A DNA stretch of 64,000 nt from Agromyces salentinus (lineage in GTDB: Bacteria > Actinomycetota > Actinomycetes > Actinomycetales > Microbacteriaceae), in the NCBI RefSeq assembly GCF_009749395.1, contig NZ_WBIR01000003.1, positions 62,001-126,000 of the forward strand. Reading direction: 5' to 3'. The notes under the pieces were generated by a model that was not told where the DNA came from, did not search any database, and was given only the letters and a program-made list of their open reading frames with translations. A program made the translations under genes and the position numbers. Shown here in pieces: positions 27,524 to 52,687 of this stretch. Position 1 is the first letter of the stretch, and every line of letters starts with the position of its first letter.

Positions 27524-27690
27524 CCGTCAATCGTCCCATGCCGGCCGGGGTGGCCGGACCGGACGGCTCGACCACCGGAGCGGCATCCGGGCGCCGATGA
27601 CGGCGTGGCGGTTCCCCGCAGGACGCTGGCGGTATCCTTGGAGACCGACGCCGCCGATCTCCGGAAGCGTGTGAAGGGATGCGACCTGAG

Positions 27691-29691
27691 ATGACGTGGC
27701 TCGATCTTGCGTGGGCGTCGACCATCGCTGCGGCGATCATGGTGCTCCCCGGATTGCTCCTCGCCCGCGTGGTCGGGCTCCGCGGCGCGTGGATGTGGGG
27801 GCTCTCCGCGCCGTTCTCGGTGACGGCGATCGCGCTTGCCGCCCTCGTCGCCCCATTCATCGGCCTGACCTGGTCGTGGGTCCCCGCGCTGCTGTTCACC
27901 GTCGTGCTCGCCCTCGCGCTCTGGGCCGCGAGGCGGCTGACCGCGTCGCGCCGGGGCGGTGCCGCGGCGGCATCCGATTCCGCTCCGACGCAGGGCGCAT
28001 GGTCCGCGTCGTCGAATGCCGGCAACGCCGGCATGTGGGCGTTCGGAGTCGGGGTTCTGCTCGCCGCCGTCGTGATCGGGATCAGGTCGGTGCAGATCGT
28101 CGGAGAACCGGGCGGCATCTCGCAGACGTTCGACAACATCTACCACCTCAACGCGGTCCGCTACATCCTCGACACGGGGAGCGGCTCGCCGCTCGACGTC
28201 GGGGCGATGACCTCCGGTGCACTGTGGTTCTACCCGGTCGGATGGCACGACGTCGCGACGCTCGTGGTGCAGCTGACGGGGGTCACGATCCCGGTCGCCG
28301 TGAACGCCACCTGGATCACCTTCTCGGCAGTCGCGTGGCCGCTCGGCATCGTGCTGCTCGCGCGTGCGCTCGGCGGCACGAAGCCGTCGGTCGCATTCGC
28401 CGCCGGTCTCGCGGCGGCGTCGATCCCGGCGTTCCCATACCTGCTCGTCGACTACGGCGTGCTCTACCCGTACCACGCAGGTGTCGCGCTCGTGCCTGCC
28501 GCGGTGGCCGCCACGGTCGCACTCTTCCGGCTGGGACGCGAGTCGACCGGCCTCGATCCGGTGTGGTCGACCGTCGTGCTCGCCGGCGCGCTCCCGGCGC
28601 TCGCATTGACGCACCCCGGCGCATTCATGGCCTGGCTCGCGTTCTCGCTGCCGATCGCCGTGGTCGCGCTCATCCGCCTGCTCAGGTCGGGTGCCGCGGC
28701 GCGCGAGAGGGTCATCGCGATCATCGGGTTCGTGGTGTACCTCGGGGTCGGGTTGGTGGCGATCCGCGTCCTGCGGCCGCCGCTCGAGGCGACGCTGTGG
28801 CCTGCGATCGGACTCGCCGGTCAAGCACTCGGCGAGGTGATCACGGTCTCGATGTACCACACGCCGATCGCCGAGGTCGTCGCGATCGCGATGATCGCCG
28901 GTGTCGTCTTCGCCGCGATGCGCCGGCGCCCCGCCGACTGGGTCGCGATCTCGCTCCTGGTCGTGGCCGGGTCGCTCTACATCGTGGTCGCCGGCGTCTC
29001 GAGCGCGACGATCCGCAACCTGATCACCGCGTCCTGGTACAACAACACGCCTCGACTCGCGGCGCTCGTGGCCGTCGCCATCGTCCCGCTCGCCGCCATC
29101 GGCGTGGCGAGCCTCTGGGAGAAGTTGGCCGCGACGGGCACCTATACGCGCCTCGTGACGAATCGCGGGCGCGTGCTGCAGGCCGCGGTCGCGACGCTGG
29201 CCGTCCTGCTCCTCGGGCTCTCCATGCAGGGCCGCAGCATCACGGGTGCGATCGACGGCGCCGCCGACGGCTACCGTTTCACCGATGACGCGCGGTTGCT
29301 CAGTCCGGACGAGCTGCAGCTGCTCGAGGAGTTGCCGGGACTCGTCCCCGAGGACGTCGCCGTCGCCGGCAGCGCGTGGACCGGCGCCGGGCTGGCGTAC
29401 GCCATCGCGGACCGACGCGTCCTCATGCCGCACACCCTCATGGACATCTCCGAAGAGGTCGGCACCATCTACGACGAACTCGACGAGCCCGGCGCCGGCG
29501 CGGAGCTCTGCGCGGCGCTCGAGGCAGAGAACGTCGGGTTCGTGCTCGACTTCGGCTCCCGCGAGGTCCACGGCGGCAAGCACGACTACACCGGGTTCGA
29601 CGAGCTGGCGACCTCCGAATCGGTCGAACTCGTGCGCGAGATCGGCGACGCGCGGCTCTACGAGATCACTGCGTGCGGGGGCCTTCGATGA
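27691..29691 (+). CDS. Polytopic membrane protein, DUF6541-like (possible lipid-linked sugar transferase)
   Basis: 666 aa from ATG 27691; ATG 27679 is in frame but abuts the AAGGG site. About twelve hydrophobic helices. The first extracytoplasmic loop (about 130-200) contains TFDNIYHLNAVRYIL and WFYPVGWHD. A final soluble domain (about 510-666) holds VAVAGSAWTGAGLAYAI. The layout resembles GT-C-type integral enzymes, which use polyprenyl-phosphate sugars, and I place it with DUF6541 proteins. The next gene is a DPM1-like enzyme that could make such a donor. TATCCT at 27632-27637 is a possible -10. Function inferred from fold and neighbour only. Confidence 0.72.
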   Translation: MTWLDLAWASTIAAAIMVLPGLLLARVVGLRGAWMWGLSAPFSVTAIALAALVAPFIGLTWSWVPALLFTVVLALALWAARRLTASRRGGAAAASDSAPTQGAWSASSNAGNAGMWAFGVGVLLAAVVIGIRSVQIVGEPGGISQTFDNIYHLNAVRYILDTGSGSPLDVGAMTSGALWFYPVGWHDVATLVVQLTGVTIPVAVNATWITFSAVAWPLGIVLLARALGGTKPSVAFAAGLAAASIPAFPYLLVDYGVLYPYHAGVALVPAAVAATVALFRLGRESTGLDPVWSTVVLAGALPALALTHPGAFMAWLAFSLPIAVVALIRLLRSGAAARERVIAIIGFVVYLGVGLVAIRVLRPPLEATLWPAIGLAGQALGEVITVSMYHTPIAEVVAIAMIAGVVFAAMRRRPADWVAISLLVVAGSLYIVVAGVSSATIRNLITASWYNNTPRLAALVAVAIVPLAAIGVASLWEKLAATGTYTRLVTNRGRVLQAAVATLAVLLLGLSMQGRSITGAIDGAADGYRFTDDARLLSPDELQLLEELPGLVPEDVAVAGSAWTGAGLAYAIADRRVLMPHTLMDISEEVGTIYDELDEPGAGAELCAALEAENVGFVLDFGSREVHGGKHDYTGFDELATSESVELVREIGDARLYEITACGGLR

Positions 29692-36459: not shown

Positions 36460-39240
36460 ATGGGGTGGAACCGTCTCGCGGGCATTCTGGCTTCGATGAG
36501 CCTGCTCATCGGGCTGCTCGTGGCCCTGCCGGCCGTCTCCGACCTCGGCTCGCAGCCGGCGCAGGCCGCCGACGGGTCGCAGTTCGACGCCGGGGACATC
36601 ATCAGCGACGGGGTGTTCTACGACAGCAGCACGATGAGCACGGCTCAGGTGCAGTCCTTCCTGAACGCACGTGTCCCGTCGTGCCGCTCGGGCTACACCT
36701 GCTTGAAGGACTACCGCCAGAACACGGCCGGGCAGCCGGCGCGATCCGAAGGTTGCGCCGCGACCGCCAGCACCGCGAACGAGACGGCCGCCTCGATCAT
36801 CGTCCGGGTGTCGAGGGCCTGCGGGATCAACCCGCGCGCGATGCTCGTGCTGCTCGAGAAGGAGCAGGCCCTCGTGAGCGACACGTGGCCGACCGCGCGG
36901 CAGTACCGGTCCGCGACGGGCTACGGATGCCCCGACACGGCCGATTGCGATGTCAACTACTACGGCTTCTTCAACCAGGTGTACAACGCGGCCTGGCAGT
37001 TCAAGAAGTACCGTGCGCGGCCCGACCGTGCCTACGCCGCCGGGCGGTGGAACACCATCCAGTGGCATCCGAACGCCGCCTGCGGCACCTCGAGCGTCTA
37101 CATCCAGAACCAGGCCACGGCGGGCCTCTACCTGTACACGCCGTACCGGCCGAATGCCGCGGCGCTCGCGAACCTCTACGGCACCGGCGACGGATGCTCG
37201 TCGTACGGCAACCGGAACTTCTGGCGGATCTTCACCGACTGGTTCGGGAGCACGCACGGCACCGAGCCGACCATGATCAAGGGCGAGAGCACGCCCGAGG
37301 TGTACCTCCTCTCCGGGGGGACGAAGCATCACATCACCACGTACAGCGACTACCTCGAGTTCCAGAAGGGACTCGGCACGCACCGGGTCGTCAGCCAGTC
37401 CTACCTGAACTCCATCCCGACCGGGCGCACGGCGACCCTCTTCGTCAAGAACAGCCGCAACGGAGAGATCGCCCTGATCCAGGGCGGCACCACGCACCGG
37501 TTCGCGAACTGCACGCTCGTCGCGGCCTGGGGTTCGCGATGCGGCGACGGGTACCTCACGGTCACGGAGGCGATCTACACGCGGTTCAAGGTCGGCGGCG
37601 CCATGACCAAGTTCGGCAAGGCCCCCGACGGCGTCGTCCGGATGCTCGAACGGCCGACGGCCGCGAAGCTCATCGGCACCGCCCCGACGGCGTTCAACGG
37701 CGGTAAGGCTCCATTCCTCGCGAAGATCTCGTCCGCGCTCCTGGCGACGTACAAGACCGGACGCACGCTCGCGGCACCGCATTCGTACATCAAGTCGACG
37801 TCGAGCAGGCAGGTGTACTACGTCGATGGGCGCGATCGCCTCCAACTCCTGAACGACTGGACGTACGCGCCCGAGTACGGGCTCGCGAAGACGGCATTGA
37901 CCGTCTCGGACAGCGTCATCGCCGGCTACGCACGAGCCGGCCGCGTCGGGCTCGCCGTGAGTTGCGGCCCGAACACCTACGCCGCATCCAGCGGCACATT
38001 CATCAGGTTGCAGCGAGGTGCGGGAGGACTGCCCGTCGCATCGCTCGCGAGCGAGACGTGCGCCCTGCTGCCGAAGTCGACGTCGACCGTGTCCGGGCCG
38101 CTCTTCCTTCAAGCGGTCGGAGCTCGCAGCGTCTACCTCGTGCGCGACGGCAAGCTCAGGCAGATCTCGTCGCCCGAGCAGCTCACCGCGCAGAACGGTG
38201 GGACCTGGCCGACGATCGTGAAGGTCTCCGGGACGACGCTCGCGAGGACGCCCATGGGTGGGGCCGCGCTGGACATCGGGACGCTGGTGGCGTTCTCCGG
38301 GGACCCGAAGGCGTACCTGGTGAACGGATGGCAACTCGTGCACATCCCGAACATCTCGCTGGCCGACGAATATCGAATTCCTCGGGCCGTGCCGACTCTT
38401 CCCGCGTCCCGACGTACCGGGTACTCCAACGCCGCTCGCCCCCTCGGGACATTCGCCAAGTGCGGTCCGACCGACGTCTTCGCCGTCACGGGAGGGCAAC
38501 GACAGAACGTGGGCGCGACCGCGCTCGCCGGAAACGCGTTCACCACGCTCCACTCGTCGATCTGCGCGCGCATCCCCGTCCGGACCCCACGCATCGACGG
38601 GCCGCTCTTCCTCGCGTCTGGATCGAGCTACCGCGTGGCGGTCGCCGGCGGCTTCGCCCCGATCTCCGCCGCGGCGATGCTCGAGGCGAATGCCGGCGTC
38701 ACGCCGGCACCGCTCGCGGTTCGGTCCGGGGCGCTCTCCGTCCTCCCGGCCCGCGGTGCGGCGCCGGCGGCCGGCTCGCTCATCCGCGGGTCCAACTCGA
38801 AGGCCGTCGTGTTCGTCGACGGCACCGCGAAGCACGCCCTGCCGAACTGGGGTGTCGCGGCCGACCTCGGCATCGCGGGCCGGTACTCGGTCGTGCATCC
38901 CGCCGAACCGGCCCTGTTGAAGACGCAGACGCCGGCGCTCGGTATCTTCGTCACCTGCGGCACGCAGGCCTACGTGGCCTCGCTGGGCGTGCTCAACCGC
39001 GTGACGCCCGACCTGGCGGCCGGCTTCAGTGTCGTCGCGCTCTCGGATGCCGCATGCGCGTCCTTGGTGCTCACCGGACTCGACATCCGTGGTGGGCTCT
39101 ACCTGAGGGACGTCTCGACCGGTCTCGTCTATCGGCCCGACTCGGGTCGGCTCGTGGAGACGGCGAAAGCCTCGATCCCCGCAGGGTCGACGGTCCTCGG
39201 CCTCGACGGACGCACGATCGCGGGGATGCTCTCGCGCTGA
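36460..39240 (+). CDS. Secreted multi-repeat surface protein
   Basis: 926 aa. Signal peptide with cleavage expected after AQA near residue 37. An N-terminal module (about 40-270) has five or more Cys and helical parts such as CGINPRAMLVLLEKEQALVSD and YYGFFNQVYNAAWQFKKY, reminiscent of lysozyme-like folds (Glu in LEKEQ). From about 275 to the end there are roughly eleven degenerate repeats of 40-60 residues, each with a core like VYLLSGGTKHHI, VYLVRDGKLRQI or VVFVDGTAKHAL. They suggest a beta-propeller or carbohydrate-binding array. No LPXTG or C-terminal membrane helix is seen. It sits between the epimerase operon and the ABC exporter. Function not known; wall binding or hydrolysis is a guess. 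Confidence 0.75.
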   Translation: MGWNRLAGILASMSLLIGLLVALPAVSDLGSQPAQAADGSQFDAGDIISDGVFYDSSTMSTAQVQSFLNARVPSCRSGYTCLKDYRQNTAGQPARSEGCAATASTANETAASIIVRVSRACGINPRAMLVLLEKEQALVSDTWPTARQYRSATGYGCPDTADCDVNYYGFFNQVYNAAWQFKKYRARPDRAYAAGRWNTIQWHPNAACGTSSVYIQNQATAGLYLYTPYRPNAAALANLYGTGDGCSSYGNRNFWRIFTDWFGSTHGTEPTMIKGESTPEVYLLSGGTKHHITTYSDYLEFQKGLGTHRVVSQSYLNSIPTGRTATLFVKNSRNGEIALIQGGTTHRFANCTLVAAWGSRCGDGYLTVTEAIYTRFKVGGAMTKFGKAPDGVVRMLERPTAAKLIGTAPTAFNGGKAPFLAKISSALLATYKTGRTLAAPHSYIKSTSSRQVYYVDGRDRLQLLNDWTYAPEYGLAKTALTVSDSVIAGYARAGRVGLAVSCGPNTYAASSGTFIRLQRGAGGLPVASLASETCALLPKSTSTVSGPLFLQAVGARSVYLVRDGKLRQISSPEQLTAQNGGTWPTIVKVSGTTLARTPMGGAALDIGTLVAFSGDPKAYLVNGWQLVHIPNISLADEYRIPRAVPTLPASRRTGYSNAARPLGTFAKCGPTDVFAVTGGQRQNVGATALAGNAFTTLHSSICARIPVRTPRIDGPLFLASGSSYRVAVAGGFAPISAAAMLEANAGVTPAPLAVRSGALSVLPARGAAPAAGSLIRGSNSKAVVFVDGTAKHALPNWGVAADLGIAGRYSVVHPAEPALLKTQTPALGIFVTCGTQAYVASLGVLNRVTPDLAAGFSVVALSDAACASLVLTGLDIRGGLYLRDVSTGLVYRPDSGRLVETAKASIPAGSTVLGLDGRTIAGMLSR

Positions 39241-39367: not shown

Positions 39368-40231
39368 ATGACATCTGTCGATTTGACGGGGTTCCAGACT
39401 CCCGGTCGCGGTCGCGGCGTGCTCGACGTCTTCAACCACGGGTACCTCCTGCGTCTGCTCATCCGCAAGGGAACCGCGACCCGGTACCGCAACTCGGTGC
39501 TCGGGTGGACGTGGTCCTACGTCAAGCCCGCAGCGCAGTTCTTCATCTACTACTTCGTCATGGGCGTGGTGCTCCAGTTCCACCGCGACGTCGAGAACTT
39601 CGCGATCTACCTCTTCGCCGGCGTCGTCGCGATCAACCTCTTCAACGAGGCGTTCGGCAACGCGACCCATTCCATCGTCGACAACCGTGCACTCGTGCGC
39701 AAGATCTACCTCCCGCGCGAGCTCTTCCCGATCTCGACGATCATCATCGCCCTGATCCACTTCCTGCCGCAGGTCGCGATCCTGCTGCTGGCGTGCATCC
39801 TCGTCGGGTGGACCCCGACGTTCCTCTCACTCGGGGCCTTCGTCATCGGGCTGGTCATCGTGCTCATGATGAGCCTCGGCCTCGGCCTGCTCTTCGGCGC
39901 GCTCAACGTCCGCTACCGCGACGCGCAGAACTTCGTCGAGATCATCCGCATGCTCTCGACCTGGGCATCACCCGTGCTGTACACGATCGCCATGGTGCAG
40001 GCGACGCTGCCGGAATGGGCGTTCCGCATCTACATGCTCAACCCGCTCACGACCGCCGTCGAGCTCTTCCACTACGCGTTCTGGGCCCCCACCACGACGA
40101 CGCCGACCGACACCCTCGCCCCGAGCATCGTCGGCGATGTCTTCCTGTCCCTGGGCATCTGCGCCGTCCTGATCGTCATCGGGCAGATCGTGTTCCGCCG
40201 GTTCGAACGGAGCTTTGCACAAGACCTATGA
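39368..40231 (+). CDS. ABC-2 polysaccharide exporter permease (Wzm/TagG-like)
   Basis: 287 aa from ATG 39368. Six membrane helices. It starts with a cytoplasmic amphipathic region LLRLLIRKGTATRYRNSVLGWTWSYVKP, typical of O-antigen and teichoic acid exporters, with VDNRALVRKIYLPRELFP and LNVRYRDAQNFVEI. It pairs with the ATPase gene, whose ATG overlaps its stop. It moves a lipid-linked polymer outward. Mycobacterial homologues (next to glfT1) export galactan, which matches the Galf genes here. Confidence 0.93.
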   Translation: MTSVDLTGFQTPGRGRGVLDVFNHGYLLRLLIRKGTATRYRNSVLGWTWSYVKPAAQFFIYYFVMGVVLQFHRDVENFAIYLFAGVVAINLFNEAFGNATHSIVDNRALVRKIYLPRELFPISTIIIALIHFLPQVAILLLACILVGWTPTFLSLGAFVIGLVIVLMMSLGLGLLFGALNVRYRDAQNFVEIIRMLSTWASPVLYTIAMVQATLPEWAFRIYMLNPLTTAVELFHYAFWAPTTTTPTDTLAPSIVGDVFLSLGICAVLIVIGQIVFRRFERSFAQDL

Positions 40232-40974
40232 GCGACACACTCACGCAGAAACGCCCCAGCATCATCGTCGAGGGCGTTCGCAAGACCTTCCAGATCCGCC
40301 ACACGCACTCCATGAAGGAGGCGTTCATCTCGCGCATCAAGCGCAAGCAGGTCGGGTCGACGCCGTACAACGCGCTCGACGACGTGACCTTCTCGGTCGC
40401 CGAGGGCGAGAGCGTCGCCGTGCTCGGGTTCAACGGATCCGGCAAGTCGACCCTGCTGAAGCTCGTGTCGGGGGTCCTCGAGCCCGACGCGGGTCGCGTC
40501 CTCACGCGCGGTCGTGTCGCCGGTCTCATCGAGGTGGGCGCCGGATTCCATCCCGAGCTCTCCGGACGTGAGAACGTCTACCTCAACGCCGCGATCCTCG
40601 GCATGAACAAGGCCGAGATCGATGAACGCTTCGATCGCATCGTCGAGTTCTCGGAGATCGGCGAGTTCATCGATCAAGAGGTCAAGCACTACTCGTCGGG
40701 CATGTTCCTGCGCCTCGCCTTCTCGGTCGCAATCCACGTGGAGCTCGACGTCCTCCTGGTCGACGAGATCCTGTCGGTCGGAGACGCGCCCTTCCGCAAG
40801 AAGTGCACGGAGAAGATCCACGAGCTCGCCCAGGCGGGCAAGACGATGCTCATCGTCAGCCACAACATGGCGATGGTGCAGGAACTCTGCGAACGTGGGG
40901 TCGTCATCCGCAAGGGGAAGAAGGTGTTCGATGGCCCGATCGCCGAGGCCGTCGAGGCGATGAACGCGAAATGA
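40228..40974 (+). CDS. ABC polysaccharide exporter ATPase (Wzt/TagH-like)
   Basis: 248 aa. Walker A GFNGSGKST, Q-loop region IEVGAGFHPELSGRENVYLNAAI (typical of this exporter class), signature YSSGM, Walker B VLLVDEIL and switch His in VSHNM. The protein ends soon after the ATPase domain, so there is no C-terminal glycan-recognition domain as in O-antigen Wzt of the O8/O9 type. Coupled by ATGA to both neighbours. It powers export through the permease upstream. Confidence 0.94.
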   Translation: MSDTLTQKRPSIIVEGVRKTFQIRHTHSMKEAFISRIKRKQVGSTPYNALDDVTFSVAEGESVAVLGFNGSGKSTLLKLVSGVLEPDAGRVLTRGRVAGLIEVGAGFHPELSGRENVYLNAAILGMNKAEIDERFDRIVEFSEIGEFIDQEVKHYSSGMFLRLAFSVAIHVELDVLLVDEILSVGDAPFRKKCTEKIHELAQAGKTMLIVSHNMAMVQELCERGVVIRKGKKVFDGPIAEAVEAMNAK

Positions 40975-42527
40975 CCTCTCGCGTCGCGGTTCAGCTGGAT
41001 GCATCCTGGTTCGAGGGCATCCGCATCGTGGACGTCCACTTCGACGGACGTCGGGTGTGGTCCGTCGCCTCGGAGGCGATTCCCGGGGGACGTCTCCGAT
41101 GGCCTGCGGCGCTGAAGCCCTACCTCGAGGGCCGCACGACGATGACGCTGCACGACGCCGCCACCGGAAGGGTCATCGGGACGACGGAACTCAGGTTCGG
41201 TCGGTCCCACGATCGCATCACCCTGCAGGATGCGGCCGGGCGACCGCTCGCGATGAACAAGTGGAATCGCCTCGGCCCGGTCTTCGACGGTGGCAATGTC
41301 GAGCTGCGCTCCCGCCTGCTGCTGAACGCGCAGGGCATCGTCGGCGTGCTCGAGGCCGCGGCGTTCGACGTCTACATCGTCGGTGGCAGCCTGCTCGGCT
41401 ACATGCGCACCGGAGGCCTCATGGCCCATGACGACGACATCGACCTGGCGTTCCTCAGCCGCCACTCGGATCCCGCCGACATCGGGCTGGACAGCTTCCG
41501 CATGCAGCGCGTGCTCGAGCGCAACGGGTACACGGTGGTCCGCCACAGCCTCGCCCACCTGGAGATCGACTTCTTCGACGCAGAGGGCCACGTCGAGCAC
41601 TACGTGGACATCTTCACCGGATACTTCCGCGACGGTCTCTACAGTCAGCCGTTCGCGCTGCGCGGGCCCGAGGTCAGGCGCGAGGACCTGGTTCCGGTGC
41701 AACGCGTCGAGGTCGACGGGGTCGAGCTCCCTGCTCCGGCGCGGCCGGAGGCATGGCTCGAGTACGCGTACGGCCCGAGCTGGCTCGTACCGGACCCGTC
41801 ATTCGTCTTCGAGACATCCCGATGGACGCGGCGTCGTTTCGAGAACAACTTCGGCGTCTTCAACCGTGGGCGGGTCTTCTGGGAGAAGCGCTACCTGTCG
41901 CTCGGCGGCGAGGTGGACCTCGATCATCAGGATCGCGATGCGATCGCAGCCTGGGCGTCTGCGCTGCCCCCGAGCGCGAGGGTGCTCGACGTCGGATGCG
42001 GAACCGGCGCCGCCGCCAATCTCATCGCGAGTTCCGGCCGCGACGTGCTCGGCATCGACTACAGCCACGAGGCGCTCTCGATCGCCGTCGAGAACGCCGT
42101 CCCCGGTGCGCGGTTCGCGTACGTGAACATCAACGATCGTCGTGACCTGCTCTCGCTCGGGGCGCGGTTGCTCGCCACGGGCGACCTCTGGCACGTCCGC
42201 ATCGCTGATGTGCTCCACGGGCTCACCCGGACGAACCGGCACTCGCTCTTCCACTTCCTCGAGCTCGTCCTGCGCGGCGGGGCGGTGGCGACGGGGACCG
42301 TGCCGACGGTCCTCCCGCCCGACTACCGGCGCGGCGACCCGACGAGCTGGCACTACCCCGAGGAGTGGTTCCGCGCCGAACTCGGCAAGCACCGGCTCCA
42401 TGTCGAGTTCGGCGAGACGAGACGACGACAGACGCCACATGGGGTTCGCGACGAGGTCGAGTTCGTGATCCGCCCGAGGCCCGCAGACCAGACCGTTCCG
42501 GCGATGAGAGAAGACGATTCAGCATGA
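40971..42527 (+). CDS. LicD-like phosphotransferase fused to SAM methyltransferase
   Basis: 518 aa, ATG overlapping the ATPase stop. Residues 1-110 form a beta-rich region. About 115-315 is a LicD/fukutin-type nucleotidyltransferase fold: FDVYIVGGSLLGYMRTGGLMAHDDDIDLAFL, with the catalytic DDDID, then LAHLEIDFFD and HYVDIFTGYF. About 325-518 is a Rossmann methyltransferase with ARVLDVGCGTGAAANL and DVLGIDYSHEALS. LicD proteins move phosphocholine or alditol-phosphate from CDP-carriers to sugars. The fusion suggests transfer plus methylation on one glycan end. A CDP-alditol source could be the TarI-like gene at 46382. Fusion is certain from the frame; substrate is inferred. Confidence 0.82.
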   Translation: MTSRVAVQLDASWFEGIRIVDVHFDGRRVWSVASEAIPGGRLRWPAALKPYLEGRTTMTLHDAATGRVIGTTELRFGRSHDRITLQDAAGRPLAMNKWNRLGPVFDGGNVELRSRLLLNAQGIVGVLEAAAFDVYIVGGSLLGYMRTGGLMAHDDDIDLAFLSRHSDPADIGLDSFRMQRVLERNGYTVVRHSLAHLEIDFFDAEGHVEHYVDIFTGYFRDGLYSQPFALRGPEVRREDLVPVQRVEVDGVELPAPARPEAWLEYAYGPSWLVPDPSFVFETSRWTRRRFENNFGVFNRGRVFWEKRYLSLGGEVDLDHQDRDAIAAWASALPPSARVLDVGCGTGAAANLIASSGRDVLGIDYSHEALSIAVENAVPGARFAYVNINDRRDLLSLGARLLATGDLWHVRIADVLHGLTRTNRHSLFHFLELVLRGGAVATGTVPTVLPPDYRRGDPTSWHYPEEWFRAELGKHRLHVEFGETRRRQTPHGVRDEVEFVIRPRPADQTVPAMREDDSA

Positions 42528-42823
42528 GACGAATGCTCGGCAGGATTGCCGCACGAATGTTCCCCCGCACTTACCACAACCTGCAGGTGCTCTCGACGGT
42601 CGACCTGCAGAGCGACTCGATGCTCGAGCGGATGATCTCGTATGAGACGGAGGTTCGCGAGCTCAGGGCTGAACTCAACGAGATCCGACGCGACAATCGT
42701 CGGGTCGTCGAGCTCTACGACCTCGTCTTCGAGCGGCTCCAGGAGGACATGCCACTGCGAGCCAAGCCGGTGCCCGCCGATGGTGGGCAGGATTCGGCGG
42801 CCTCGACGGGCGAACGGAGCTGA
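42524..42823 (+). CDS. Small coiled-coil protein of exporter operon
   Basis: 99 aa, ATG overlapping the previous stop, so fully coupled. A basic start (MRRMLGRIAARMFPR) could be an amphipathic membrane-binding helix. A coiled coil of about 40 residues follows (SMLERMISYETEVRELRAELNEI). The tail is disordered. Possibly a DUF6752-type protein, though I am unsure of that name. It may scaffold the exporter or the LicD fusion at the membrane. No catalytic motif. Confidence 0.7.
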   Translation: MRRMLGRIAARMFPRTYHNLQVLSTVDLQSDSMLERMISYETEVRELRAELNEIRRDNRRVVELYDLVFERLQEDMPLRAKPVPADGGQDSAASTGERS

Positions 42824-42850
42824 GTATCCCGGGCTCCTGCCAGGAGGAGA

Positions 42851-44392
42851 TCAGGGCCGGACGTGAAGGCTCAGATTCGCGTGGATGTTCGAGTAGACGT
42901 GGTACTGACGTCCGTTCGGATTCCGGTCGAACCTCCCGATCGCCCGCACAGCTCGCTGGTTGACGACCCCGAAGAGCTCGTTCCTCGCGTTGAAGTCCCA
43001 ACGCCCGGCGGCCATGGGCCGACCATGGCGAAGTGCTTCAGGCGTGAGGACCGCGACTGATCGCGCGGTGACGTCGGGGTAGCCCGATGCCGGGTCGACG
43101 GTCACGGACGTCTCGGTCGGCACCAGCCAGGTCATCTTCGTGTCCCGGGAGCGGAGACCGATCCTCGTGGAAGCCGCAGCGATCTCGCGGTCGAGCAGGA
43201 GGAGGTCGTCTCCCAGTTCGGCCGCGAGGTGATCGGGGAGTGCGCGTCGCACGTGATCGCCGTCGACCACGAGGTCGAGGAAGCCCCCGTGGTGCGCCGT
43301 CCACAACGTCTTCGTCTCCAGGCGGATGGAGGGGCCGTCATCGGAGTCGACGCGAGAAGCCAGCGCGAAGGTGATGCCCAGGATCCCGTCGTCGAAGGAG
43401 GCGAGCGCTTCGACCAGGTCGGTTCGACCGAGGCGGAGCAGATGCGCCCGTGCGGCGAGGTGGCGTGTCAGGCGCTGATCCATCCGCGGTGCCAGGAACC
43501 CGTCGACCAAGGAGCGTGCGCGGTCGAGGACGAACGCGCGATCCTCGGGCGGACGTCGAAGCAGCCCGGGACCCACGGCCGGAAGCACGCGTTCCCGGAA
43601 CTGGTGGACGAGCAACTGGTCGCGTTGACCCGCGTCCTCCTGCGAGCCGAGGACTGCGTCGATATGGCGGATGATGCGCTCGAGGGCATCCCACCACTCC
43701 TTCAGGTCGGCGCCGAAGGTGGTCGAGGTCGTGCTCTGCTCCCGGACCCAGTGGTAGAACGGCTCGTCGGAACGAATGCTCACGCCGCGCATGTGACGGG
43801 CCACGTCGGCGTTGAAGATGACGTCCTCCCACAGTTGGCGACCCGCCTCCGGGAACCGGATGCCGTGATCGCGCAGCATCGAGGTGCGGTAGGCCTTGTG
43901 CGGGTTCGTGGGGATCAGCGGGTGGACTCCGAGACGCTCGCTCGCGTCGTCGTGATTTCCATCGAACGCGTCGAGTGCCCACTTCGCCTGGTCGGTGCGG
44001 GCCTCCTTGCCTGCGAACACGTCGGCGCCGGTGCGTTGCAGTGTTTCCACGGCGGTGGCGAGGGAGCCGGGATACAACTCGTCATCGTGGTCGACGAAGA
44101 GGATGTATTCGCCACGGGCCAGATCGATGCCGGTGTTCCGCGGCGCGCTCGGCCAGCCGGTGTGCGCGATGCGATGGAACCGGGCGTTCGGCTGTTCGCC
44201 GACCATCTTGGCGATGGCTGCCGCCTCCGGTTCGGGCGAGCCGTCGTCGATGACCAGGACTTCGAACCGCTCGGCCGGCAAGGTCTGGTCGCGGAGGGAT
44301 GTGAGGAGCCGCCCGAATGCTTCGCCGGAACGGTACGTCGGGACCACGACGCTGATGAAGGGAGTGGAGGACGGGCGCGGCGCCTCAGCCAT
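42851..44392 (-). CDS. GT2 glycosyltransferase, TarS/TarP-like, copy C
   Basis: 513 aa from ATG 44392. The GT-A domain of about 330 residues has ISVVVPTYRSGEAF, FEVLVIDDGSPEPE, NTGIDLARGEYILFVDHDDELYP, then NPHKAYRTSMLRDHGIRFPE and LWEDVIFNADV. These last blocks match poly(ribitol-phosphate) GlcNAc transferases TarS/TarP. A shorter C-terminal beta-domain (about 370-513) contains RWDFNARNELFG. It overlaps the preceding copy by 8 bp. It is the last gene of a seven-gene minus-strand operon. Sugar unknown. Confidence 0.85.
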   Translation of the reverse strand: MAEAPRPSSTPFISVVVPTYRSGEAFGRLLTSLRDQTLPAERFEVLVIDDGSPEPEAAAIAKMVGEQPNARFHRIAHTGWPSAPRNTGIDLARGEYILFVDHDDELYPGSLATAVETLQRTGADVFAGKEARTDQAKWALDAFDGNHDDASERLGVHPLIPTNPHKAYRTSMLRDHGIRFPEAGRQLWEDVIFNADVARHMRGVSIRSDEPFYHWVREQSTTSTTFGADLKEWWDALERIIRHIDAVLGSQEDAGQRDQLLVHQFRERVLPAVGPGLLRRPPEDRAFVLDRARSLVDGFLAPRMDQRLTRHLAARAHLLRLGRTDLVEALASFDDGILGITFALASRVDSDDGPSIRLETKTLWTAHHGGFLDLVVDGDHVRRALPDHLAAELGDDLLLLDREIAAASTRIGLRSRDTKMTWLVPTETSVTVDPASGYPDVTARSVAVLTPEALRHGRPMAAGRWDFNARNELFGVVNQRAVRAIGRFDRNPNGRQYHVYSNIHANLSLHVRP

Positions 44393-46328
44393 GAGCAGCG
44401 ACCTCGAGTCGCGCAGTGGTCCGGTCGACGCGGATGCTCCACGCCGGCATGTGCGTGCCGCGCGGCGAGGCGGTCCAGCGGTAGCGGCCCGGACCCGGCA
44501 GCTCGAGCGTCGCGATGACCCCTCCGCCCGCGCTGTCCCCATCGGTCGGTCGGAAGCGCGCTCGGAACCTGGCCGGCGGATGCTCGCGTCGAGCGATTCG
44601 CCGCATCAGGCCGACCGCCGCCGAGCGAAGACCCGCCCGCCGGAATGAGAGCAGCACCCAGCCCGAGCCCTCACCCGCGCCGGCCGTCGCGACCTCGGGA
44701 AGGCTGAGGTGCACTTCGGTGCGGCCGTCGGACGGCGTCGTGCCGGTGACCGCTGAGGGCGTCGAACCATCGAAGAGCGACGCGACTCCACCTCCGAGAT
44801 CGATGCTGAGGAACCCATCGCGATTCGTGTACGCGACAACGGGCCGGCCGTCGACGAGGGCGCCCTGCGCTCCGATCGAGGAGCGGATGCGCGGTTGCTG
44901 CAGTCGACCCACGCGGTCGACACGGAGGAAGACGTCCCACACCTGGTCGTCGAGGAACGGATCCGACGGCGCGGCTCGGACATCGACGGCCCCGTCGACG
45001 GTGAGCCGCAGGCTGACTTCGCTGCCATCGGCGGAAGCCGGCCGGGAACGTGCGCCGACCTCGCTCTCGACGCTCCATCCGATGCGCGAGCCTCGACCTC
45101 GTACGGCGAAGGCCGCCGCCGTCGCCTCGAGCTCCTCCGCGACGTCGTATCGGCCCGCCAGTTCGGCCGGATCGAGCTCGAGTTCGGCGGCGAGCGCCTC
45201 GATGAGGTCCTCGGATGCCGCGAGCACCCGCTCGCCATCGATGCGGAAGGTGCCGCCGCCGGCGAGCCGTTCGACCGTGGTCACGGTCGCCGACACGGCC
45301 AACCTCCCGCCTCGCCACTCGGCCCGGTCGAGCACGGGAGCGCCGAACCGGTCGGTGCCGGCCGCCGACGCCGCGAGCGACAGGAGGGCGGAGTCGCCGG
45401 ACCGGAGTGCGGCGGCCACGACAGCGGCTCCCCGATCGAGGTCGTCATCGTCTGAGACATCCGTGAAGCGCTCCTGGAGTCGCCTCGCCCGATCCTCGAT
45501 GAGCCGTCGTTCCTCCTCCGGCCGGCGGAGGAACCCGGGGGTGAACGATCCGAGGATGCGGCTGACGTACTGGTGGCGCCGCAGTTGGCGTCCTTGCAGG
45601 GAGTCGCGGCCGAGCCGGTCGACGATCGCCTCGAGCACCCGCTCCAGGTGATCCCACCATGCGGGGTCGGACCGACGGAAGGTCGTCGAGCCGCTGCCGC
45701 CCGTCTGCACCCAGTGGTAGAACGGCACCGAGGCCAGGGTCGAGATCGTCGCAGCCTTCGCGGCGACCTCGATGTTGAAGAAGATGTCCTCCCAGAGCAC
45801 GCGGCGTCCCTCGATGAAGCGGATGCCGTGCTCGCGGAGGAAGGCGGTGCGGTACAGCTTGTGCGGGTTCATCGGTACGAGCGGGTGGGCGTCCTCACGC
45901 CCGACGTCCTGCGGGGAGTCGGCCCGATAGGTGTCGAGAGCCCAGCCCGCGTCCTGCGTGCGGGCCTCCTTGCCGTTCAGCACATCGGCACCGTGACGCC
46001 TGGCGAACTCCGCGCCCGCCCGCAGCGCATCGGGGTAGAGCTCGTCATCGTGGTCCATGAAGAGCACGTACTCGCCCTCGGCGAGATCGAGGCCGACATT
46101 GCGTGGCCGCGACGCCCAGCCCGAGTTCTCGATGGCCTCGACGCGGATGTTCGGTCGAGTCGACGCGATGCGGTGCAGTCGCTCGACCGTGTCGTCCGGG
46201 GAGCCGTCGTCGACGAAGATCACCTCGAACCGGTCGGCAGGAAGGGTCTGGCGATCCAGCGACGCGACGAGCCGGTCGAGACCGGCACCGGGGGAGTAGG
46301 TCGCGACGACGACGCTGACGAGGGGCAC
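44385..46328 (-). CDS. GT2 glycosyltransferase, TarS/TarP-like, copy B
   Basis: 647 aa, GTG start. VSVVVATYSPGAGLDRL, FEVIFVDDGSPDDT, RPRNVGLDLAEGEYVLFMDHDDELYP, NPHKLYRTAFLREHGIRF and LWEDIFFNIEV, as in TarS. The C-terminal 300 residues are beta-rich and contain DDQVWDVFLRVDRVGR; TarS has an equivalent IWDVFLEV motif in its tandem C-terminal modules. The length equals that of copy A (647 aa). A role in decorating an alditol-phosphate polymer outside or before export is a reasonable inference. Confidence 0.86.
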   Translation of the reverse strand: MPLVSVVVATYSPGAGLDRLVASLDRQTLPADRFEVIFVDDGSPDDTVERLHRIASTRPNIRVEAIENSGWASRPRNVGLDLAEGEYVLFMDHDDELYPDALRAGAEFARRHGADVLNGKEARTQDAGWALDTYRADSPQDVGREDAHPLVPMNPHKLYRTAFLREHGIRFIEGRRVLWEDIFFNIEVAAKAATISTLASVPFYHWVQTGGSGSTTFRRSDPAWWDHLERVLEAIVDRLGRDSLQGRQLRRHQYVSRILGSFTPGFLRRPEEERRLIEDRARRLQERFTDVSDDDDLDRGAAVVAAALRSGDSALLSLAASAAGTDRFGAPVLDRAEWRGGRLAVSATVTTVERLAGGGTFRIDGERVLAASEDLIEALAAELELDPAELAGRYDVAEELEATAAAFAVRGRGSRIGWSVESEVGARSRPASADGSEVSLRLTVDGAVDVRAAPSDPFLDDQVWDVFLRVDRVGRLQQPRIRSSIGAQGALVDGRPVVAYTNRDGFLSIDLGGGVASLFDGSTPSAVTGTTPSDGRTEVHLSLPEVATAGAGEGSGWVLLSFRRAGLRSAAVGLMRRIARREHPPARFRARFRPTDGDSAGGGVIATLELPGPGRYRWTASPRGTHMPAWSIRVDRTTARLEVAAHG

Positions 46329-46381
46329 CAGACGATCCTAACCGGGGGAGGCTGCCGCGGGAGGGCCGTGACGGCCGGGCA

Positions 46382-47080
46382 TCACTCCTCCGCGTCGAGG
46401 AGGTGCTCGGCGATCAGTCTGGCCGTTCCGAGATCTTGGGGCGTCGTGATCTTGATGTTGTTGACGTGTCCCTCGATGATGCGGACCGCGACCCCGCAGT
46501 ACTCGGCCACGAGGTCCGCGTCGTCGCTGACCCGGGCGTACTCCGACTCCACGGCGGCGCGGTACGCCGCGTGGAGCAGGTCCCGCTGGAAGGCCTGCGG
46601 GGTCTGGCCGAGCCAAGAGTGCGATCGATCGAGCGACCCCTCGATGAACCCGTCGTCGCTCACGAGCTTGACCTGCACGGTGCTCGGCATGCCGAGCATC
46701 GCCGCGCCGTGCTGGACGGCGGCCTCCACGACCTTCTCGACCAGGTCGGGGGTCGTGAACGGACGGACCCCGTCGTGCGTGATCACGATGTCGCCGGTGG
46801 TGGCAGCCAGCCCCTGCATGGCGGAGAGGTGGCGCTCGGCGCCGCCCTCGACGAGCACGACGTCGAGTCCGGCGTCATCGACGAGGATGCGGCGGTACTC
46901 GGCTTCGTTCTCCGGGCTCACCGTGACGATGACCTCGTCGACGACGGGGACCATGATCGCCCGTACGGTGCGCTCGATGACGGTCATGCCGTCGATCGTC
47001 ACGAGCAGCTTGTTCGATCCGAATCGCGTGCCCTTGCCGGCGCACGTGACGATCGCCGAGACCTTGTGGCCCGCGTGCAT
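46382..47080 (-). CDS. IspD/TarI-family cytidylyltransferase
   Basis: 232 aa, ATG overlapping the SDR stop (ATGA). SAIVTCAGKGTRFGSNKLLVTIDGMTVIERT (CTP-binding Gly-rich loop with Lys), VIVTVSPENEAEY, TTGDIVITHDGVRPFTTPDLVEK and HSWLGQTPQAFQRDLL are IspD/TarI blocks. IspD makes CDP-methylerythritol; TarI, Bcs1 and human ISPD make CDP-ribitol. The location between TarS-like genes, far from isoprenoid genes, and the coupled reductase-like SDR favour a CDP-alditol product. A check for another ispD elsewhere in the genome would help. Substrate inferred. Confidence 0.85.
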   Translation of the reverse strand: MHAGHKVSAIVTCAGKGTRFGSNKLLVTIDGMTVIERTVRAIMVPVVDEVIVTVSPENEAEYRRILVDDAGLDVVLVEGGAERHLSAMQGLAATTGDIVITHDGVRPFTTPDLVEKVVEAAVQHGAAMLGMPSTVQVKLVSDDGFIEGSLDRSHSWLGQTPQAFQRDLLHAAYRAAVESEYARVSDDADLVAEYCGVAVRIIEGHVNNIKITTPQDLGTARLIAEHLLDAEE

Positions 47081-47862
47081 CAGCGCACCTCGCGAAGCGA
47101 CCCGGCGAAGGCGCGGATCTCCGCCAGCTCGGTCTCGGCGTCCAGCAGGTACGGCCCGCTGCCGCCGAACAGCCCGGCGTGCTCGGTGCGCATGTCGCGC
47201 GTGTACATGCTCGCGAACGGGTCGGCGGGACCGGGATCGTTCGCGCTGATGTCGGCGCCGAACGCGGCTGCGACGACATCGTTGCGGAGCGCCGGGGTGG
47301 CGAGGTTCAGCGAGGAGAGGCCGGCCTCGAGGGCGGTGCCGATATCGTTCCAGAGGCGCCGGACGTCGTAGTACTGGAACTCGGCCTCCGGCCGGATGAA
47401 TTCCACGCGGTAGTCGTTGGCGAGGTCGTAGACGATGCCCTTCTTCAGGCCGTCGCCGTAGAGCTGCGGCAACCGCAGGACGAGCGTGTCGTGCTCGGCG
47501 GTGAGGCGGCGCTCCTGGTGCAGGCGGTTCGCGCCGTACGGCGTGAGCCCCTCGTCGCTCGTCGGGGTGGATTCCGTCGGGCTGGTCCCGCCCGGGTACA
47601 CGCAGACGGTCGAGACGAGCACGACCTTGTCGGCCTTCACGGTGGCGAGGCGGTCGGCGAGCGCGTCCACTTCGACGCGATCGGCTTCGCCCTCCCGGTT
47701 GATGCGGTGCGAGTCGGCGCGGTTGCCCGCGGTCACGACGAGGTCGAACGACTCGCCCTCGATGTCGTGGATGTTGCTGGTGTTGTAGACGGCGTCGAAC
47801 GCGTGTCGTGACGCGAGGTTCGACCCGACGAATCCGGTGTATCCGATGAGTGCGGTTCGCAC
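47080..47862 (-). CDS. Unusual SDR (NAD-dependent epimerase/reductase) with YxxxR
   Basis: 260 aa, GTG start with AAAGG upstream. NAD motif GYTGFVGSNL (7-16), VVTAGNRADSHRIN, VLVSTVCVYPGG, then YGANR where SDRs normally have YxxxK. The rest, with LRLPQLYGDGLKKGIVYDL and YYDVRRLWNDIG, is RmlD/epimerase-like. Lys-to-Arg at the catalytic site may alter or abolish standard chemistry. Coupled to the TarI-like gene, it could reduce a ketose phosphate, as the SDR half of Bcs1/Acs1 does, but sequence alone does not prove it. Confidence 0.78.
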   Translation of the reverse strand: MRTALIGYTGFVGSNLASRHAFDAVYNTSNIHDIEGESFDLVVTAGNRADSHRINREGEADRVEVDALADRLATVKADKVVLVSTVCVYPGGTSPTESTPTSDEGLTPYGANRLHQERRLTAEHDTLVLRLPQLYGDGLKKGIVYDLANDYRVEFIRPEAEFQYYDVRRLWNDIGTALEAGLSSLNLATPALRNDVVAAAFGADISANDPGPADPFASMYTRDMRTEHAGLFGGSGPYLLDAETELAEIRAFAGSLREVR

Positions 47863-47943
47863 GTGTGCCTTTCGTCGTCGTACTGGTGTGCAGCCGACGC
47901 ATCCGATGGGTCTCCGGGCAGCGCCGGCCGACCGGGCATCAGG

Positions 47944-49925: not shown

Positions 49926-51227
49926 TCAACGGGTCGGCAGGTGACCGGCACCGGGATCGCGCGCCGTCGCGAGCGCATCCCGCCAACTCATGTCCCTGGC
50001 GGACTTCACGGCGCACACGACGAGCAGCATCCAGCCGCCTTCGAGCAGTGCGAAGCTCTCTGCGAAGCTCGTCACCGTGATGATGACCAGCATGAGCGCC
50101 GGCCACAGGTACACGACGCTTCGCCGGCCCGTCGCGAGCAGCCAGGCGCGGACGAGCGCCACCCCGATGAGGCCCGCGAAGAGCAGGACGCCGATGACTC
50201 CGACCTGGAAGTACACGTCGACATAGGCGCTCAGCGCCGAGCTCTGCTGCCGGCCGATGGCGGCCTCGATCCAGAGGTACGGCGACGCGTCGGGCCACGC
50301 GCCCACCCAGCCCCAGCCCTGGAGCGGATTCAGCGCGAGGTACCGGGATGCCTCGCGCCAGAGGTCGAGCCGGACGTCGAAGTCCGCACGGGCGTCGAGC
50401 AGTTCGATGATGCGGCCGCGGATCAGCCAGACGGTGATGAGCACCGCGACCGAGGTCACGAGCAGGGCGATCTGCCATCGCCACCTGGTCGAGGGCGCGG
50501 CTCGGCGGAGGCCGTAGATCGCGGCGAGGGCGACGAGGGCGACGGCCAGGGCGATCCACGCGGTGGGCGAGCCCGAGAACACGACGCAGACGGCCGCGAG
50601 CGTGATCGAGGCGATCGAGCGGCCCCTCGACATGATGTGGGTACGCCACTCGACGACGAACGTCAGCAGACCGATCACGGCGATGAAGCCGAGCAGGTTG
50701 CGCGAGCCGAAGATGCCCTGGATGGGGCCGAGCGAGGCGATGTTCCCCTGCACGCCGATGAGCGGGATCGCGGTGTCGATGAGGATTCCCGCGACGATCT
50801 CGAGTGCGAGCGAGGCGCCGAGCAGCACCCGGGTGACGCCGCCGAAGGCCCGGACGATCTGCAGCGTGTCGCGCATGAGCGCCACGTAGACGCCGATGAT
50901 CCCGAAGATGACGAGGTAGATGACCCGGGCGAGGCTGAGCACGGGCGTGGTGCTCCAGAGCACGGATGCCACGCACCATCCGACGAAGACCAGGATCGTG
51001 AGCGGCAGGATGCCGTACCACTCGACCGCGCGCCACCTCGCCACGAGCGAGAGCGCGCAGAGCACGAGCAGCACCGCGAGCATGGCCAGCAGTCCGGGCC
51101 AGCCGATGAGGCTCCGGATGAGGTGCGTCGTGAAGGCGGTGCCGATCGCCGCGGTCGAGAGTGCCTGGGCGAACCGTGCGGAGCCGGCGAACTCGCGAAG
51201 CGGCAGGAACGTCGTGGCGCCGGTCAT
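49926..51227 (-). CDS. O-antigen ligase/Wzy-like membrane protein, copy 1
   Basis: 433 aa. About twelve membrane helices. The large outer loop between late helices contains FDVRLDLWREASRYLALNPLQGWGWVG and SALSAYVDVYFQVGVIG, the Wzy_C/O-antigen ligase pattern, with Arg and His/Asp-type positions partly kept. SGSPTAWIALAVAL and GSRNLLGFIAVIGL are also family-like. Its ATG overlaps the stop of copy 2. It may polymerise or ligate lipid-linked units. First helices are longer than usual. Confidence 0.86.
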   Translation of the reverse strand: MTGATTFLPLREFAGSARFAQALSTAAIGTAFTTHLIRSLIGWPGLLAMLAVLLVLCALSLVARWRAVEWYGILPLTILVFVGWCVASVLWSTTPVLSLARVIYLVIFGIIGVYVALMRDTLQIVRAFGGVTRVLLGASLALEIVAGILIDTAIPLIGVQGNIASLGPIQGIFGSRNLLGFIAVIGLLTFVVEWRTHIMSRGRSIASITLAAVCVVFSGSPTAWIALAVALVALAAIYGLRRAAPSTRWRWQIALLVTSVAVLITVWLIRGRIIELLDARADFDVRLDLWREASRYLALNPLQGWGWVGAWPDASPYLWIEAAIGRQQSSALSAYVDVYFQVGVIGVLLFAGLIGVALVRAWLLATGRRSVVYLWPALMLVIITVTSFAESFALLEGGWMLLVVCAVKSARDMSWRDALATARDPGAGHLPTR

Positions 51228-52627: not shown

Positions 52628-52636
52628 GCCGTCAAG

Positions 52637-52654
52637 GGTATCGCTCCGGATACC
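52637..52654. promoter_or_regulatory. Inverted repeat between divergent wzy-like gene and ugd
   Basis: GGTATC (52637-52642) and GATACC (52649-52654) with a 6-nt spacer lie in the 60-bp gap. The TATCG and TATCC cores could be -10 boxes in either direction. It may be a shared operator. Weak evidence. Confidence 0.3.
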
Positions 52655-52687
52655 GCAGAATGGTTCGGATCGATGTGAAGGAGAACC

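Follow-up and report, generated by a model that had tools for sequence, protein, structure and literature searches.

Within the 64,000-nucleotide stretch of Agromyces salentinus DNA analysed here (contig NZ_WBIR01000003.1; hereafter the window), one gene encodes a 926-residue protein composed of a predicted signal peptide, an N-terminal module (N-module) with a predicted lysozyme-superfamily fold, and a long repeat array. We consider it probable that the protein represents a new, uncatalogued family of secreted peptidoglycan glycosidases, held on the cell wall by repeats resembling those of EccB and PlyCB. It would be a new kind within a known enzyme type, with repeats of known fold, and no ordinary member of a named family. 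Searches of the whole protein against Pfam and NCBIfam returned no family at an expectation value (E) of up to 1, as anticipated by a preliminary description of the window, which could not name one with certainty. Sequence searches against the PDB gave only chance matches (best E 0.84), and the LGFP, CWB2 and choline-binding repeat profiles of Pfam had no match in the protein at E up to 1. By inspection and hydropathy, the N-terminus presents a hydrophobic stretch followed by a signal-peptidase-like A-Q-A site at residues 34-36; a sorting motif of the LPxTG type is absent from the last 60 residues. The nearest named relative, among the best 80 of at least 563 matches, is from Agromyces allii (84% identity in the N-module). 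In literature on wall hydrolases of Saccharibacteria/Patescibacteria or Microbacteriaceae, no title or abstract opening among those listed names the N-module family; most subscription papers and all of bioRxiv lie outside that scope.

Predicted fold and conservation of the N-module

An AlphaFold2 (AF2) model of the N-module, built from an alignment of 29 relatives, was obtained with high confidence (predicted local distance difference test, pLDDT, 92.3; predicted template modelling score, pTM, 0.90). The model has the helical glycosidase fold of GH73 enzymes, GH23 enzymes and g-type lysozymes. VIA-align superposition on 270 Foldseek candidates placed the GH73 enzyme LytB in the top three positions (Z 10.0, 9.7 and 9.0; the best with a root-mean-square deviation, rmsd, of 3.1 over 140 residues), followed by AtlE (Z 8.3), other GH73 enzymes, MltF and g-type lysozymes. 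In total, 79 chains scored Z 5 or above and 7 scored Z 8 or above. Among the 50 rows listed (Z 10.0 to 5.3), 48 are titled wall- or chitin-cleaving enzymes, the exceptions being a phage tail tip (8ej5) and an NLP/P60-family lipoprotein (4fdy); 29 of the first 30 Foldseek rows are likewise wall-cleaving enzymes, and the remaining one is a phage tail tip. While a Z of 10 is only modestly above a background of 7 to 8, the consistency of the match list is the stronger argument. In predicted fold, GH73 endo-N-acetylglucosaminidases come closest to the N-module; GH23 lytic transglycosylases and g-type lysozymes come second. The preliminary description had remarked on a lysozyme-like look of this Cys-containing part, which the confident model and the LytB match bear out. 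It had also held that a match to a non-catalytic family, together with a lack of wall association, would refute its reading; the matches of the modelled fold are instead to wall hydrolases.

When the 29 N-modules were scanned singly against Pfam (E up to 10), five families appeared, each in one member (best E 0.058). Neither PF01832 (GH73) nor PF01464 (GH23/SLT) matched the whole protein at E up to 1 or any of the 29 modules at E up to 10.

In a set of 163 distinct sequences that includes the A. salentinus protein, K134, E135, G154 and Q173 are invariant, and T220, Y224, T227 and P228 are present in 162, with one gap each. E135 (module residue 100) lies at the C-terminal end of a model helix (module residues 90-101), where we take the catalytic Glu of g-type lysozymes to lie as well. 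In three profile-profile comparisons of the N-module with a set of seven GH23 domains, E135 fell each time on the catalytic Glu, though at a weak probability of 3-10%; the three share sequences and hence are not independent. P-values were 0.003-0.017 for the real GH23 comparisons versus 0.73-0.94 for reversed-profile controls. We propose E135, invariant in 163/163 sequences, as a general acid. Eight cysteines (75, 81, 99, 121, 157, 163, 208 and 246) lie in the N-module, and eight more in the repeat part form four pairs spaced by about 165 residues. A profile-profile match of the N-module to the repeat unit (24.9%) was rejected as an artefact, since the alignment rows ran past the module and took in as many as 35 residues of the first repeat.

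The repeat array and its relation to EccB

The array is built on a unit of about 57 residues with a super-period of about 166 residues. Ungapped self-comparison at shifts of 168, 331, 166 and 56 residues scored 52, 47, 45 and 41, against 37 for the best of 20 shuffles. A hidden Markov model (HMM) of 227 units, from which those of the studied protein and two close kin had been removed (though present in earlier gathering rounds), recognized six clear units (15.4 to 48.5 bits each; Table 1) and gave the whole array 186.2 bits, versus at most 10.7 in 500 shuffles. Five partial traces (408, 672, 730, 840 and 882) scored -2.9 to 2.9 bits, no better than the single matches of up to 8.2 bits found in shuffles, so that just six units are demonstrated by sequence alone. 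The other slots are assigned on the basis of the ~57-residue spacing and the strand/helix pattern of the array model; one of these slots, residues 383-438, can be superposed on an EccB repeat (see below). With about 12 slots by spacing and model, the earlier count of about eleven degenerate repeats was a fair one.

In the AF2 model of the array (pLDDT 93.4, pTM 0.74), small alpha/beta units follow one another over the full length, each made of three strands, a helix, a strand and a helix. Foldseek matched it to an ESX-5 complex chain, presumably EccB5 (E 2.2e-6), and to EccB1 (E 1.1e-5); the first eleven matches (E 2.2e-6 to 7.4e-4) comprise seven chains named EccB and four ESX-5 complex chains, presumably EccB5, and the twelfth is haemopexin (E 0.07). 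In superpositions on EccB1, residues 383-438 fit 3x3n at 1.9 A over 55 residues (Z 7.0) and residues 440-497 fit 5cyu equally well (1.9 A) over 57 residues, with Z 6.8. Longer alignments from this comparison have an rmsd of 14 A or more. The whole-array sequence profile also matches EccB1 (E 1.7e-5; best single stretch 0.002), and, with E up to 1 allowed, PF05108 (EccB) matches 6 of 32 members (best E 8.8e-7). It is the whole-array profile and the fold that support the link to EccB. By both, the array agrees with the EccB repeat domain, apart from two misses, of PF05108 in its own sequence and of EccB by a single-unit profile. The latter search, suggested in the preliminary description, was unproductive: profile A3 gave chance matches in the PDB, the best an OR464 repeat protein (E 5.6e-5, with no significant single stretch). 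Fold prediction settled the question of propeller versus solenoid in part, yielding units of EccB repeat type and no propeller blades; a propeller was rejected, as the units match EccB repeats and the first propeller in the Foldseek list, haemopexin, has E 0.07.

Related units occur in wall-binding proteins of phages. The phage endolysin LysIME-EF1 matches one unit of the array (Z 5.1, 2.6 A over 55 residues), and repeat 1 of EccB1 is reported to resemble the wall-binding subunit PlyCB of a phage (Dali Z 5.0, 2.7 A; PMC4769845). The idea that the protein binds the wall glycan has a precedent in the EccB/PlyCB fold; the ligand could be the exported polymer, peptidoglycan or both.

Comparison with known enzymes and wall-binding proteins

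The GH73 enzymes (LytB, AtlE, AtlA-gl and SagB) are the best structural matches of the N-module, although identity in their VIA-align rows is only 8-12% and PF01832 does not match. The N-module differs from them by its own conserved cysteines and by YxYTP and YGNxNF segments, and at its presumed catalytic Glu it has KEQ, where GH73 has ES. GH23 lytic transglycosylases and g-type lysozymes are matched at Z 5 to 7.

The repeats share their unit fold with the periplasmic repeats of EccB, a type VII secretion protein. EccB has 4 repeats round a core domain behind a transmembrane segment, whereas here about 12 units are fused to an enzyme-like module behind a leader that, by inspection, has a signal-peptidase-like site; in place of an EccB core domain a lysozyme-type module was found, with no search aimed at the EccB core alone. 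Membership in EccB or type VII secretion was rejected, since PF05108 has no match in the genome, the architecture differs and type VII neighbours are lacking: of 20 neighbouring open reading frames (ORFs) scanned, each is a wall-polymer gene or unassigned. The overall plan is alike in LysIME-EF1 and PlyC (PlyCA enzyme plus PlyCB ring), which also combine a lysozyme-type domain, as we presume PlyCA to contain, with wall-binding units of related fold. In PlyC these units form an octameric ring, while here they stand in tandem in a single chain.

Domain partners of the N-module in relatives

Three or more repeats of the EccB-like kind were present in 19 of the 80 named loci, and a GW-x-x-D-P-type repeat, by simple motif count, in 16. 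The C-termini of 70 actinobacterial relatives (73 less three too short; some end at contig edges) carry LGFP (13), FG-GAP (8; FG-GAP_3 in 8, FG-GAP in 7), CWB2 (6), EccB (3), CBM_4_9 (2) and SH3 (2). In Saccharimonadia, 41 C-termini (42 less one too short; seven from the named loci and 34 from elsewhere) carry B_lectin (10), N_BRCA1_IG (10), LGFP (2) and a ricin-type lectin (1). N_BRCA1_IG and FG-GAP are by themselves no evidence of glycan binding. The variety of C-terminal domains indicates that the N-module is fixed and its partner exchanged.

The EccB-like repeat stands beside the module in 8 of 20 divergent members fetched (L161, L162, L164, L167, L168, L170, L171 and L175), and also in L073/L118, L121, L141, L142 and L146. 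Its occurrence in divergent members indicates that the pairing is old. Two members from small genomes of the actinobacterial phylum, L158 and L159 (2 of 2 fetched), have a long region N-terminal to the module; in L158 (7-1194), the one scanned, it scores as the PcsB coiled coil known from peptidoglycan hydrolases, with 28 bits where 27 is the cut-off.

Two further frames come from the Patescibacteria sample. A divergent member (L163, 231-3485) joins the module to Ig-type domains and a subtilase in 1085 residues, and a relative of the module at G843:C1:736337-736951 lies within an open frame of 24,404 residues, perhaps a giant protein.

Genomic surroundings

Directly downstream of the gene are the permease and ATPase of an ABC-2 polymer exporter (Table 1). 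Further neighbours include an acyltransferase, an epimerase and several GT2 enzymes, one of the latter lying within 40971-47902 besides the TarS-linker glycosyltransferase. The gene set likely makes a teichoic-acid-like polymer.

Table 1. Features of the gene, its product and the surrounding region, in positions of the window.
Feature	Position	Strand	Basis
Whole gene, secreted 926-residue protein	36460..39240	+	ORF with ATG start; homologues across most of the length in kin
Predicted signal peptide, residues 1-36, ends PAQA	36460..36567	+	sequence and hydropathy
N-module, residues 37-265, predicted lysozyme-superfamily fold, 8 Cys	36568..37254	+	AF2 and VIA-align
K134-E135 invariant dyad, helix end; E135 proposed general acid	36859..36864	+	163/163 sequences and model
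Q173 invariant	36976..36978	+	163/163 distinct sequences
Repeat array, residues 266-926, ~12 slots, EccB-repeat-like ~57-residue unit, ~166-residue super-repeats	37255..39237	+	self-comparison, HMM, AF2, EccB matches
Repeat unit 271-321, clear	37270..37422	+	48.5 bits
Repeat unit 328-376, clear	37441..37587	+	35.8 bits
Repeat unit 442-491, clear	37783..37932	+	31.6 bits
Repeat unit 549-598, clear	38104..38253	+	36.2 bits
Repeat unit 607-655, clear	38278..38424	+	15.4 bits
Repeat unit 772-815, clear	38773..38904	+	31.1 bits
DUF6541 protein, then GT2 and DUF2304 genes	27679-29688	+	E 9.4e-159
ABC-2 polymer exporter permease (Wzm/TagG-like)	39368..40231	+	PF01061 E 3.3e-19
Polymer exporter ATPase (Wzt/TagH-like)	40228..40974	+	PF00005 E 5.1e-18
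LicD-methyltransferase fusion	40971-42527		profile scan
TarS-linker glycosyltransferase	42854-44542	-	profile scan
IspD/TarI-type cytidylyltransferase, second half of ORF, true start probably further in	within 46385-47902	-	
Neighbouring pair of ORFs, both with a Wzy_C/O-antigen ligase domain	49929-53770	-	

The preliminary description had pointed to the place beside the exporter, and this arrangement proved non-random. A Wzt-like ATPase (at least 40% identity over 150 residues or more, a threshold set after the first table was viewed) was found in 27 of the 80 named loci, which were taken with flanks of at most 6 kb per side and average 12.1 kb in length, and 25 of these 27 also have a Wzm-like permease. 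About 0.5 of 80 loci would be expected by chance, from at least 43 places at that identity in ~91 Mb of 25 relatives, the locus count and the background count having been made with different programs. The loci include two near-syntenic kin (L032 and L033) and were selected for closeness to this N-module. Within the genus, by eye, a full N-module lies within 15 kb of the best Wzt in 10 of 16 genomes and a fragment in an eleventh, and in all 16 the two are within ~41 kb on one contig.

Proposed function and alternative explanations

We propose that the protein would be exported by the Sec route and then folded with disulfides. The repeats, up to twelve in number, would anchor the enzyme on peptidoglycan or on the teichoic-acid-type polymer made and exported next door. 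The N-module would then cleave peptidoglycan glycan strands, with E135 as general acid assisted by the invariant K134 and Q173 and the YxYTP segment, and wall strands would probably be opened or trimmed where the exported polymer is inserted.

Several observations weigh against this proposal. Biochemical evidence of any kind was not found. For the N-module, neither the GH73 nor the GH23 sequence profile matches it or the whole protein, Foldseek against the PDB was weak (best E 0.17), VIA-align itself cautions that models lacking clear kin often reach a best Z of 7-8, the GH23 profile-profile match has just 3-10% probability, and KEQ or similar stands where GH23 shows ES. For the repeats, the whole-array Foldseek alignments to EccB have template modelling scores (TM-scores) of 0.09-0.12 with an rmsd above 30 A, which confines the likeness to single units, and a unit Z of 7 is below the level that the alignment tool considers telling for repeats. 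The array of the A. salentinus protein has no PF05108 match at E up to 1, the single-unit profile A3 did not retrieve EccB from the PDB, and, according to PMC4769845, wall binding by EccB is without experimental proof. Finally, 53 of the 80 loci have no such exporter ATPase in the flanks examined.

Alternatively, the N-module could keep the lysozyme fold as a non-enzyme, that is, as a glycan-binding or structural surface module, the protein being a wall-anchored adhesin or envelope scaffold. Its profile match to catalytic families is weak, its partners in relatives are surface and binding domains, and a structural role has been suggested for EccB, the kin of the repeats (PMC4769845). We nevertheless regard this explanation as unlikely, since a purely structural role would hardly account for K134, E135, G154 and Q173 never changing across 163 distinct sequences of two phyla when many other positions differ, and the PcsB-type coiled-coil architecture of L158 also argues against it.

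If the N-module is an enzyme, its substrate could be the exported wall polymer, with teichoic-acid or polysaccharide chains trimmed or released and peptidoglycan left uncut. Clustering with Wzm/Wzt is in line with such a role, as is the presence in the window of an IspD/TarI-type cytidylyltransferase, a TarS-linker glycosyltransferase and LicD. However, the module occurs in Saccharimonadia and at the 53 exporter-free loci, joined to many different C-termini, and the nearest folds act on peptidoglycan or chitin; a polymer substrate therefore appears improbable. We give still less credence to an interbacterial protein aimed at the walls of neighbours, including epibiotic Saccharibacteria, or, in the genomes of the latter, at the host wall. 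A close subfamily is common to Actinomycetes and Saccharimonadia, and damage to host envelopes by lytic transglycosylases of Patescibacteria has been proposed (PMC11665869), but presence in all 60 genus genomes and the neighbouring biosynthesis genes suit a housekeeping role better. The secreted peptidoglycan glycosidase proposed above, if confirmed, would be a concrete candidate for how epibionts handle their own or the host wall, and would offer a place to look in actinobacteria for a link between the export of wall polymer and the remodelling of the wall. The EccB/PlyCB-like repeat is in turn extended from secretion machines and phage lysins to many secreted bacterial proteins.

Distribution and evolutionary history

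Distribution was counted from matches at E up to 0.001, with the whole protein as query for the family count. The module was found in 60/60 genomes of the genus, 139/150 genomes and 78/85 genera of the family Microbacteriaceae, 51/198 genomes of the order (14 of these from the same family) and 10/296 genomes of the actinobacterial phylum, of which four belong to the same family and six are distant (E 1e-15 to 1e-26). Among the best 80 of at least 563 matches, relatives occur in Agromyces, Cryobacterium, Clavibacter, Cellulomonas, Demequina, Geodermatophilus and Blastococcus, and in six Saccharibacteria/Saccharimonadia metagenome-assembled genomes (MAGs) at 53-59% identity. The class Saccharimonadia, to which the Saccharimonadales MAG of locus L063 belongs, has the module in 213/244 genomes (by eye, 183 of these matches have E 1e-30 or better, the other 30 being weaker), 0.4-2.2 Mb in size, a recurrence that speaks against binning error. 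In their phylum, Patescibacteria, 90/239 genomes have a match; all 14 at E 1e-40 or better are also in the class sample, and the other 76 are more divergent. The module is thus present in most sampled Saccharimonadia, yet has no family entry in the copies of Pfam and NCBIfam searched.

In a quick tree of 71 rows, hand-picked from the 163 distinct sequences, the close subfamily from actinobacteria and Saccharimonadia forms one group, apart from ten divergent rows (98 starred), with many of its inner branches open. The ten are not from Patescibacteria alone: L156 and L158 belong to the actinobacterial phylum, and the genomes of L167 and L174 were drawn in the Saccharimonadia class sample as well. 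With 67 rows, four long ones having been left out, neither a single actinobacterial clade (p 0.656) nor a single Saccharimonadia clade (p 0.585) was rejected. A single transfer between the phyla would be the simplest reading of these sequences. One Saccharimonadia copy (L129, genome G669) sits among actinobacterial copies (support 89) and is perhaps a second transfer. A guess at an origin in Patescibacteria can be made because divergent members are widespread there, and several of these have the same two-part build of module and repeat.

Cultivated Saccharimonadia/Saccharibacteria live on the surface of actinobacteria. In Ca. S. epibionticum, epibiotic growth is reported to require peptidase and lysozyme homologues encoded beside virB4 (PMC12102498). 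We entertain, as a tentative and rather doubtful scenario, one wall-glycosidase family common to most genomes of an actinobacterial family and most Saccharimonadia, which would have crossed phyla, likely from Patescibacteria. The epibionts would use it to open or grip the host wall via lectin-type domains, and the actinobacteria for polymer-coupled wall remodelling.

A phage or plasmid gene was rejected as an explanation, as tblastn with the N-module retrieved nothing from 50,697 phage records at E up to 1, nor from 72,556 plasmid records at E up to 1e-5. Viral contigs contain two distant relatives, one 41% identical over 131 residues and the other 30% identical over 130.

PF01464 (SLT) and PF01832 (Glucosaminidase) have no match in the whole A. 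salentinus genome at E up to 0.001, and the uncatalogued module may stand in for these families there. The same genome encodes a short paralogue outside the window (L002, G000:C33:274797-275564, minus strand; 299 residues) with a lipoprotein-like start (LAGC). Exactly two matches are present in 51 of the 60 genus genomes, often one long and one clearly shorter open frame (by eye), and this pairing suggests membrane-held and wall-held forms of one putative activity.

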